The notes below the pieces were generated by a model. The model ran no database searches. It saw only the letters and a list, made by a program, of their open reading frames with translations, and was not told the DNA's origin. From Acidimicrobiia bacterium (lineage in GTDB: Bacteria; Actinomycetota; Acidimicrobiia; Spongiisociales; Spongiisociaceae), in contig JAGWAN010000027.1 in NCBI GenBank assembly GCA_021296345.1, forward strand, positions 1-64,000: a stretch of 64,000 nucleotides of DNA. Reading direction: 5' to 3'. A program made the translations under genes and the position numbers. This document shows, piece by piece, positions 54,406 to 57,398 of this stretch (positions within the stretch are counted from its first letter, which is position 1; each line of letters opens with the position of its first letter).

Positions 54406-54669
54406 GTGTCTATACCCGCACGCAGCATGAGCAGCCGGGAGTTCAACCAGGCGACCGGCGCGGCGAAGCGGGCCAGCAGGAACGGCCCCGTGTATGTCAC
54501 CGATCGCGGGCGGCCTTCCCATGTGCTGTTGAGTTACGAGCACTACCGGGAACTGACCGCGGACCGGCCGCACTTCGCCGACATTCTGTGCAGAACCACG
54601 GGGATCGGTGAGGTCAACGTGGAGTTCCCGAGACTCGACGATCCGGCCAAGGTTGCTGTCCTCGACTGA
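54406..54669 (+). CDS. Phd/YefM-type antitoxin
   Basis: An 87-residue antitoxin. SSREFNQATGAAKRASRNGPVYVTDRGRPSHVLLSYEHYREL is the Phd/YefM fold (F-N-x-x-x-x-A-K-R-A pattern). A C-terminal tail, FPRLDDPAKVAVLD, would wrap the toxin. GTG 54406 has GGGAGG nine bases upstream; ATG 54427 is an alternative. Its stop overlaps the toxin ATG by one base (TGATG). Confidence 0.85.
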   Translation: MSIPARSMSSREFNQATGAAKRASRNGPVYVTDRGRPSHVLLSYEHYRELTADRPHFADILCRTTGIGEVNVEFPRLDDPAKVAVLD

Positions 54670-55100
54670 TGTACGTCCTCGACACCGTTGTCGTCTCCGA
54701 GACCCGCAAGATCAGAGCCGGCCGAGCCGATCCCGACGTTGCCTCATGGGTGGCCCGGGTCGAGCACGACCTGGCCTACATCTCGGCCATCACCATCCAG
54801 GAACTCGAACTCGGAGTGTTGCTGGCTGAGCGCCGTGACCCGGCGTCGGGCACGATCCTGCGCGCTTGGCTCGACAACGACGTGTTCGAGGCCTTCGATC
54901 AACGCATCCTGCCGGTTGATGCCAGGGTGGCGCGACTGGCCGCTTCCCCGCACATGCCCGATCCGGCGCCTGCGAGCGACGCTCTCATCGGCGCCACCGC
55001 CATAGCCAACAACATGGTGCTGGTGACCCGCAACACCAGAGACTTCGAGCGCTTCCCGGGACTGGAGGTCCTGAACCCGTGGGCCTCCACCACTTTCTAG
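54669..55100 (+). CDS. vapC: PIN-domain toxin (VapC/FitB type)
   Basis: A 143-residue PIN nuclease. The acidic site includes Asp5 in YVLDTVVVSE, Glu near 42 in TIQELELGVL, and Asp in ASDALIGATA plus NTRDFERF. The sequence is closer to FitB/VapC of the Phd-paired type than to other PIN families. It probably cleaves specific tRNA or mRNA, neutralised by the adjacent antitoxin. The module lies between leuD and lgt and looks intact. Confidence 0.87.
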   Translation: MYVLDTVVVSETRKIRAGRADPDVASWVARVEHDLAYISAITIQELELGVLLAERRDPASGTILRAWLDNDVFEAFDQRILPVDARVARLAASPHMPDPAPASDALIGATAIANNMVLVTRNTRDFERFPGLEVLNPWASTTF

Positions 55101-55997: not shown

Positions 55998-56141
55998 AAG
56001 TATCGGCGCCTAAGCCTGGATGTCGCGAACCAGTCCGACCGATTCACGGATTCGCGCAAGGATCAGCGGCCCGACGTTGCGCCGTACGCCGGAACCGGCT
56101 GTCCCATGACTCTAGGTTTCTTGACACACCATCGGGTTGGG

Positions 56142-56170
56142 TTGTCGGGCGGTGGCTGATGGGGTAACCT
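56142..56170 (+). promoter_or_regulatory. Promoter of the aromatic leader/DAHP synthase transcript
   Basis: TTGTCG (56142-56147) and TAACCT (56165-56170) are separated by exactly 17 bases. The -10 ends seven bases before the GTG of the leader peptide, so transcription should start at or next to that codon. No ribosome site precedes the GTG, consistent with leaderless initiation. Confidence 0.65.
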
Positions 56171-56177
56171 GCCGCTC

Positions 56178-56249
56178 GTGAGTTCGACCGAGGTGTATTC
56201 GTATTTCGCCTTTACCGGGCCCGGCGCCCGGGCCTGGTGTGACGTCTAG
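56178..56249 (+). CDS. Aromatic amino acid leader peptide (23 residues)
   Basis: GTG 56178 opens a 23-codon frame ending at TAG 56247. It reads MSSTEVYSYFAF, then TGPGARAWCDV. Tyr codons are at positions 7 and 9, Phe at 10 and 12, and Trp at 20, far above chance. Codons 13-20 (ACC GGG CCC GGC GCC CGG GCC TGG) form a GC hairpin whose arms are the switching parts of the attenuator. It is followed by an intrinsic terminator and the DAHP synthase-chorismate mutase gene, so ribosome position on the Tyr/Phe codons should control readthrough. This is my reading of the sequence, not a recalled annotation. Confidence 0.78.
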   Translation: MSSTEVYSYFAFTGPGARAWCDV

Positions 56250-56303
56250 ACCGAACCTGTCGTAGAAAAAGCCAAGGCCCGGAGCGACCGCTCCGGGCGT
56301 TTT
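56214..56303 (+). terminator. Attenuator: competing hairpins and intrinsic terminator
   Basis: Region 1 (GGCCCGG, 56218-56224) pairs with region 2 (CCGGGCC, 56228-56234), extended outward to 56215-56237. Region 3 (56276-56282) is an exact copy of region 1, GGCCCGG, so region 2 can pair with it instead. Region 3 is also the 5' arm of the terminator: GCCCGGAGC (56277-56285), loop GACC, GCTCCGGGC (56290-56298), then GTTTTG. Pairing 2:3 would prevent the terminator. Confidence 0.78.
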
Positions 56304-56336
56304 GACGTTCGGAGCGATCCACACCAGAGGAGCACC

Positions 56337-57398
56337 ATGGAACGCAGAGCACTCCGCAACGGATCCGCCACGGACACCATCGTCGAGGTGGGGGAGACCA
56401 GGTTCGGCCACGACCCGTTCCCGACCATCGCAGGACCACGGGCGGTCGAGTCGGAGGAACAGATCATGAAGGTCGCCACCACGGTGGCCGAGGCCGGCGC
56501 CACCGTACTTCGCGGTGGTGTATTCGAGTCGAGCTCCTCACCGTACGCGTTTCCCGGACTGGGCGCGCCCGGTCTGGAGCTGTTGCGCGACGCGGGGGCC
56601 GAGGTGGGCCTGCCCACGGTCACCAAGGCCCTGGAACCCAAGGACGTCGAGATGGTCGCCTCGCACGTTGACATGATCCACGTCGATCCCCGCTCCATGC
56701 AGAACTTCGAGTTGCTACGCGTTATCGGTGGGACGGGGAAGCCGGTGCTGCTCGAGCGCGGCGGATCCGCCACGGTGGACGAGTGGTTGTGGGCGGCTGA
56801 GTACGTTCTCGCCGAGGGCAATGACCAGCTGGTGCTGTGCGAGGGGGGCATCCGCACCTTCGAGCAGTCGACTCGAGCCACCCTCGACCTGAGCTCGATT
56901 CCGGTCCTCAAGGAGATCAGCCACCTGCCGGTCATCGTGGCGCCTTCCGCCGCCGCCGGTTCCCGGACCAGGATCCAACCCTTGTCGTTGGCCGCCCAGG
57001 GCGTCGGCGCCGACGGGCTGATGGTGGAAGTCCATCCGGACCCCATGGCGTCCCGCACCGCGGTGTCGCATCAGATCACCCTGGAGATGTTCACCGATCT
57101 CATGGACGCATTGGGCGTCAACCGGGTCCGGATCAACATCGACATGATCGACCGCGACCTGGTCCGCCTGCTGGCGCGCCGCCATCTCATGGTCATGCGG
57201 GTGGGCCGGATCAAGGCCCAGCGAGGGATGCCCGTCCACATTCCCGAGCGGGAGGCGGAGTTGCTGGACATCGTCCGGGAGGAAGCGGAACGCCATGGCC
57301 TGGATCCGGCCGAGATCGAGGATGTGTTCGATGTCATCCTGGAGCAGTCGAGGGAGATGCAACGCCGGGAACGGGCCCGATCCTGGTCCCGTGCCTGA
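56337..57398 (+). CDS. 3-deoxy-7-phosphoheptulonate synthase fused to chorismate mutase
   Basis: A 353-residue bifunctional enzyme of the shikimate pathway. Residues 1-260 are a class I-beta DAHP synthase (AGPRAVESEEQIMKVA, LRGGVFESSSSPYAFPGLG, GKPVLLERGGSATVDEWLWAAEYV, LCEGGIRTFE, PVIVAPSAAAGSR, VEVHPDPMASRT). Residues about 265-345 form an AroQ-type chorismate mutase helix bundle (INIDMIDRDLVRLLARRHLMVMRVGRIKAQ, then IPEREAELLDIVREEAERHGL). In DAHP synthase the usual Asp in VEVHPDP and the missing Lys/His should be checked. SD GAGGAG precedes ATG 56337. An aromatic leader-peptide attenuator lies directly upstream. Confidence 0.9.
   Translation: MERRALRNGSATDTIVEVGETRFGHDPFPTIAGPRAVESEEQIMKVATTVAEAGATVLRGGVFESSSSPYAFPGLGAPGLELLRDAGAEVGLPTVTKALEPKDVEMVASHVDMIHVDPRSMQNFELLRVIGGTGKPVLLERGGSATVDEWLWAAEYVLAEGNDQLVLCEGGIRTFEQSTRATLDLSSIPVLKEISHLPVIVAPSAAAGSRTRIQPLSLAAQGVGADGLMVEVHPDPMASRTAVSHQITLEMFTDLMDALGVNRVRINIDMIDRDLVRLLARRHLMVMRVGRIKAQRGMPVHIPEREAELLDIVREEAERHGLDPAEIEDVFDVILEQSREMQRRERARSWSRA

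Follow-up and report, generated by a model that had tools for sequence, protein, structure and literature searches.

The locus considered here raises two questions: whether the short reading frame and hairpins in front of a gene annotated as a bifunctional DAHP synthase/chorismate mutase form a transcription attenuator, and what kind of enzyme such a switch would control. The locus lies in the window, by which we mean the whole stretch of 64,000 nucleotides analysed (contig JAGWAN010000027.1 of the Acidimicrobiia assembly GCA_021296345.1); coordinates are positions in the window, and the features of the leader and of the gene behind it are on the + strand. A first-pass annotation, made from the DNA letters alone, had read the locus as an aromatic amino acid attenuator preceding a DAHP synthase-chorismate mutase gene. 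Judging from the anatomy of the leader, its conservation, the co-variation of its pairing regions, its codon specificity, the loss of catalytic residues and the pattern of purifying selection, we consider it very probable that a ribosome-mediated attenuator responding to Phe and Tyr controls a chorismate mutase gene that carries a catalytically dead DAHP synthase domain.

Anatomy of the leader

The putative promoter consists of a -35-like hexamer, TTGTCG (56142..56147), and a -10 hexamer, TAACCT (56165..56170), which follows it by 17 nt. Both were found by direct reading at the places and with the 17-base spacing first described, but a strict sigma-70 scan returned no consensus promoter, and near relatives have a spacing of 18 nt. 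We did not accept the exact TTGACA at 56121 as the -35 element, since it has no properly spaced -10 and is not conserved. The leader ORF (56178..56249), which we take to be leaderless, starts with GTG and runs for 23 codons to a TAG at 56247-56249. Its peptide, VSSTEVYSYFAFTGPGARAWCDV*, has Tyr7, Tyr9, Phe10, Phe12 and Trp20, as the first-pass annotation had listed; also exact on direct reading are regions 1 (GGCCCGG, 56218-56224), 2 (CCGGGCC, 56228-56234) and 3 (GGCCCGG, 56276-56282).

These regions can enter three pairings. In the minimum free energy structure, regions 1 and 2 form a hairpin of 11 bp, not 7 as first thought (ACCGGGCCCGG / CGC / CCGGGCCTGGT, 56214..56238), which in the window begins immediately 3' of the last Phe codon. 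The predicted antiterminator joins a region 2 strand, GGCGCCCGGGCCT (56223..56235; from duplex folding and co-variation), to a region 3 strand made up of the 5' arm and loop of the terminator (56275..56289; from duplex folding and loop-swap permutations), and this duplex has a computed energy of -26.1 kcal/mol (z -3.7) in the window. The intrinsic terminator, 3:4 (56277..56298; from reading and the MFE fold), is a 9-bp stem, GCCCGGAGC-GACC-GCTCCGGGC, with the loop GACC. Its length and its sharing of region 3 agree with the first description, but the T-run is a short one of four T (GTTTT; 56300..56303). The fold of the window's leader RNA beats 198 of 200 shuffles (z = -2.8). The shuffle z-score of a lone sequence is modest support by itself, suggestive rather than conclusive, and it is because of the conservation in orthologous upstream regions that we take the attenuator to be more than chance.

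Conservation across the order

Orthologues were surveyed by a genome-contig scan together with searches of the window's family and class (395 genomes); those records that carry names are MAGs, and several bear the label Acidimicrobiia. Orthologues with the mutase domain occur in families f1 and f3-f8 of one Acidimicrobiia order. The 116 upstream regions extracted comprise 86 distinct ones, 82 with a candidate leader ORF and 4 without. These four, from f3 genomes without the attenuator (L193-L196), still precede the fused gene; at least one of the genomes (G118, L302) has a Phe leader before pheS. The first-pass annotation had proposed looking for the short ORF and the alternative pairing in related genomes, and both prove to be kept.

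The counts that follow refer to 73 leaders for which a script scored at least two Phe/Tyr codons and a terminator with a T-rich tail; several upstream regions beyond the 73 have the hairpin with a tail below the script's threshold. In this set the Phe/Tyr cluster stands in a fixed frame ending YFxFTG, and Phe and Tyr interchange freely at the aromatic positions. The start of the peptide varies, while the Phe/Tyr codons are kept as a class (TTC 107, TTT 99, TAT 69, TAC 55). Codons ending in U are enriched, TTT making up 48% and TAT 56% in the leaders versus 13% and 23% in genes. Clustered Phe/Tyr codons, as an attenuator should have, are found in nearly all orthologous leaders. Trp is another matter, since any Trp at all occurs in only 14/73 leaders; it is not conserved, in keeping with the earlier view that Trp20 has no regulatory part. 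The last aromatic codon adjoins region 1 and is followed in 56/73 by ACC, which belongs to the stem, so that a stalled ribosome would cover region 1 and spare region 2.

The elements on either side of the leader ORF are conserved to different degrees. A TANNNT box lies 6-10 nt upstream of the leader start codon in 71/73, a count somewhat inflated by the fact that the -10 box was part of the script's rule for choosing the ORF. The distance suggests that the leader mRNA is leaderless, as first proposed, and we infer a transcription start at, or a few bases from, the start codon. A -35-like hexamer (at least 4/6 matches, 16-19 nt spacing) is found in 66% of orthologues versus 11% of control positions, and is TTGTCG or TTGTCC at 17-18 nt in most of the window's family. 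An intrinsic terminator with a U-tract precedes the gene, as it would in an attenuator, with a tail that is weak in the window's genus (3-4 T, falling to three in close relatives) and reaches up to 8 T elsewhere.

A few records from the survey deserve separate mention. In genus g15 of family f7 (L140, L143-L146) the leaders have few Phe/Tyr codons, one of them none, with the terminator kept and region 2:3 pairing in some; these are perhaps attenuators in decay or of another specificity. The pattern matches L225 and L226 were rejected as they lie inside longer reading frames and have no leader. A gene of the window's family on a short contig (L114, G271:C15, 3018 bases), in an f4 genome that has its own copy too, is likely a binning contaminant.

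Co-variation and folding of the proposed switch

As in a working attenuator, the 1:2, 2:3 and 3:4 pairings are mutually exclusive. Besides the 5' arm of the terminator, region 2 pairs, with a bulge, with the terminator loop and the bases preceding it, and because the loop is unpaired in 3:4, swapping loops gives a clean test of the antiterminator. The 2:3 pairing was scored by duplex folding, as a contiguous-stem search misses the bulged pairings of family f3. Among 29 representatives, between which the permutations leave some relatedness, the true 2:3 duplexes averaged -23.1 kcal/mol versus -19.1 (sd 0.5) for swapped partners, with 0/20,000 permutations as good; when the loop alone was swapped between genomes, the mean pairing was weaker in 20,000/20,000. 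In the f3 subset, aligned in a single register, 14 cells have double changes and the covariation is 0.33, versus at most 0.11 for slid controls. Paired changes include CTTTC/GAAAG, CTCTC/GAGAG, GATGG/CCATC and GTTGG/CCAAC. The alternative pairings of the first-pass annotation are borne out by this co-variation, and together with the conserved Phe/Tyr cluster it supports the reading as Tyr/Phe attenuation.

Partition functions for the window's RNA, cut before region 4, predict that region 3 pairs upstream with a probability of 0.89 if a ribosome sits on the last Phe codon, and of 0.01 if it has reached the stop codon. With no ribosome, 2:3 is also favoured (0.89), and on this model the ribosome-free state before region 4 is made is not clearly an "off" state. 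The full-length RNA of the window at equilibrium tends to the terminator even with region 1 masked (0.54); as the finished RNA goes to the terminator, the switch would therefore rely on the order of folding during transcription.

A probable second target

When 138 genomes of the order were searched by pattern, the same kind of leader turned up before pheS in family f3, and retrieval of pheS then yielded 16 of them. They were picked by a Phe-favouring score, and the number 16 is not a frequency. Phe is present and Tyr absent in 16/16, whereas Tyr occurs in 31/32 of the f3 leaders that precede the fused gene (p = 8e-12). The codons follow the amino acid of the downstream gene, Phe only before pheS and Phe plus Tyr before the mutase, as attenuation predicts, and the two sets of leaders serve as a natural codon-swap control. 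No such leader precedes pheS in the window's own family. Phe-only leaders with a terminator before pheS were seen in f3 at L230-L234, L236-L239, L254, L258, L264, L265, L273, L299, L302 and L308, and an FTGPxARA module is common to most f3 pheS leaders and to leaders before the fused gene.

The gene behind the leader

This gene (56337..57398; Pfam PF00793 and PF01817) encodes a protein of 353 aa in which a pseudo-DAHP synthase appears to be fused to an AroQ chorismate mutase. The DAHP synthase domain (56406..57089) was compared by alignment with solved enzymes and with 14 intact paralogue loci. It matches the type I-beta DAHP synthases in family profile (Pfam, NCBIfam) and in fold, the AlphaFold2 model (pLDDT 85) lying 1.2 A from 1vs1. 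Its ligands are a different story. Among the residues that we take, from general knowledge of type I DAHP synthases, to bind metal and substrate, the metal Cys is replaced by Arg35 in the window protein, and the Asp and His of DPSH by Ala202 and Ala205; Glu64 and Ser66 replace the Lys and Arg of KPRT, Glu140 the Lys of LLKRG and Gly170 the Arg of CERG. The domain thus lacks two of the four metal ligands and most of the residues that bind substrate, and appears to have lost catalysis. This sequence evidence does not support the idea that the gene encodes a working DAHP synthase-chorismate mutase. We found no report of a dead DAHP synthase fused to chorismate mutase in the open-access literature.

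The extent of the decay varies. In three related genomes (L158-L160) all catalytic residues are intact behind a like attenuator; in families f1 and f3 both the metal Cys and the metal His are gone, and other lineages lack the KPRT motif and further residues. Parsimony on a quick ML tree counts at least 2 changes each for Cys and His and 2 for "all seven intact", which does not settle whether the domain decayed repeatedly and independently in many lineages. The DAHP synthase paralogues elsewhere in the window's family of genomes keep their catalytic residues, and the window's own genome has such an intact enzyme, with no attenuator, at another locus. In that family no attenuator was seen upstream of the canonical DAHP synthase paralogue or of prephenate dehydratase genes, and no type II DAHP synthase was found in the window's genome.

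The mutase domain (57126..57365; orthologue alignment) has the active-site Arg, Lys, Arg-Glu and Gln of the AroQ type: the equivalents of E. coli R11, K39, R51 and E52 are invariant in 87/87 orthologues and that of Q88 is present in 86/87. In a search of the assembly (95% complete) for AroQ-type mutases, the fused gene was the sole complete CM_2 match. It is worth noting where selection acts. The dead domain has a dN/dS of 0.076 within the genus and the mutase one of 0.189, and in f3, where dS exceeds 1, the values are 0.079 and 0.112; purifying selection is stronger on the dead domain than on the mutase.

Other arrangements came to light beside the fused gene. In families f2 and f4, L204-L206 and L210 encode a protein of about 700 aa that joins chorismate mutase and prephenate dehydratase to an intact DAHP synthase. 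The window's genome also holds, behind a gene for an ABC transporter ATPase, a frame-broken remnant of a second gene of the fused kind, from its mutase end and in pieces 69-83% identical (L213, G000:C78:14500-18000). In the window itself, at 54406-55100, two small adjacent ORFs, an antitoxin-like one of 87 aa and a PIN-domain-like one of 143 aa, look like a toxin-antitoxin pair when judged by eye.

Proposed mechanism and alternatives

How ribosomes stall, where transcription starts and ends, and what the dead domain does are our interpretation of these observations. Transcription would start no more than a few bases from the first codon of the leader, onto which the first ribosome would load directly. 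With ample charged tRNA-Phe and tRNA-Tyr, the ribosome would reach the stop codon and cover region 2; region 3 would then pair with region 4 and transcription would end near 56303. When Phe or Tyr is short, the ribosome would stall at the Tyr/Phe codons 7-12, over region 1, and region 2 would be free to take up region 3, along with the terminator loop, while region 4 is still to be transcribed, allowing readthrough into the gene. Readthrough would raise the level of chorismate mutase, whose reaction commits chorismate to Phe and Tyr and not to Trp. The mutase stands at the head of the Phe/Tyr branch only, whereas DAHP synthase serves all three amino acids; a leader that reads Phe and Tyr and not Trp fits the mutase better than it fits DAHP synthase.

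The first-pass version, in which the same attenuator controls a bifunctional enzyme that still makes DAHP, has in its favour that the window protein scores 317 bits against NCBIfam NF009239, a bifunctional equivalog whose cut-off is 279, and that L158-L160 combine intact catalytic residues with a like attenuator. Yet the window protein has replaced the Cys, the His, KPRT, the LLKRG Lys and the CERG Arg, all kept by the paralogues, and we find this version improbable. The element itself could be imagined as an ordinary small-protein gene or a leftover terminator with no pairing switch; GC-rich DNA often has short GC-rich hairpins, and the fold z of the window is only -2.8. This is a little harder still to credit, since the terminator loops, which 3:4 leaves unpaired, co-vary with the leader, and the peptide varies at its start but keeps its set of Phe/Tyr codons.

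A metabolite riboswitch, a T-box or a protein-binding leader would also switch between terminator and antiterminator, the ORF then being incidental. We think such a device highly improbable here, as a search of the leader against Rfam found no family, T-box included, at E up to 1, and as it would leave unexplained why codons are Phe-only before pheS and Phe plus Tyr before the mutase. Just as improbable, in our view, is an attenuator with an added action in trans of the leader peptide or of the terminated leader RNA. The peTrpL peptide of Sinorhizobium provides a precedent (PMC7298713), and the tail of the peptide (ARAEGAR, ARVDAR) is partly conserved; that tail, however, overlaps region 2, and RNA pairing accounts for much of its conservation.

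Returning to the Phe/Tyr attenuator with a dead DAHP synthase domain, the question is why the domain is kept. In Porphyromonas, the mutase of a DAH7PS-CM fusion goes from a Km of 19 to 207 uM without the DAH7PS domain (PMC12202928). Given this roughly tenfold rise, the simplest guess is that the dead domain acts as a scaffold or allosterically, and that it is such a partnership with the mutase which probably keeps it in place. We lean, with some reserve, towards a wider reading in which the domain, joined to the main chorismate mutase of the cell, has become a conserved regulatory pseudoenzyme, having lost catalysis in the window's family and others while retaining the stronger selection and the ancestral Phe/Tyr attenuator. 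Such a domain may carry end-product allostery, or may link the Phe/Tyr branch to entry into the pathway by binding the paralogous, intact DAHP synthase.

These observations make a comparative case for leaderless Phe/Tyr attenuation across a whole bacterial order, an uncultured group. In many of these genomes, the standard label "bifunctional DAHP synthase/chorismate mutase" is probably mistaken. Having a series from intact to dead active sites behind one regulatory element also lets one ask why a dead enzyme domain is kept.

Comparison with known systems

The first-pass annotation had regarded this form of attenuator as unfamiliar, a claim that is too strong in the light of earlier work. As described in PMC11802643, the aroR leader of Corynebacterium glutamicum, with a Phe-Tyr-Phe sequence, precedes the DAHP synthase gene aroF (Neshat et al. 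2014). By that description, both are actinobacterial Phe/Tyr leader peptides before a DAHP synthase gene, with stalling raising transcription; there, however, the target is DAHP synthase and only Phe limitation acts, whereas the DAHP synthase domain here, having lost its catalytic residues, looks dead and is fused to a mutase, so that the downstream gene would not be the working DAHP synthase of an aroR-type system. The same source names the pheL-pheA and pheST attenuators of Escherichia coli. They share with our system attenuation through Phe codons of both kinds of target, a mutase-containing enzyme and phenylalanyl-tRNA synthetase. They differ in being proteobacterial, in responding to Phe alone and in controlling a chorismate mutase-prephenate dehydratase, as opposed to Phe plus Tyr and a putatively leaderless leader mRNA here.

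The leaderless arrangement has its own precedent in the Streptomyces leader peptides trpL, leuL and ilvL (PMC8079986), which are transcribed leaderless and followed by hairpins and a terminator. A survey from 2005 described trp, cys and leu/ilv elements in Actinobacteria and reported that the other pathways of amino acid biosynthesis had no conserved structure (PMC1262725). In both works the amino acids concerned are Trp, Leu, Ile and others, in contrast to Phe and Tyr here. The DAH7PS-CM enzymes of Porphyromonas and Prevotella share the domain order, DAHP synthase N-terminal and mutase C-terminal, and a mutase that is poorer without its partner, but both of their domains are active, and the paper calls the fusion specific to periodontal pathogens (PMC12202928). 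Set against the open-access literature, what appears to be new here is the lineage-wide case, the paired pheS control and a pseudo-DAHP synthase as the target of the switch.
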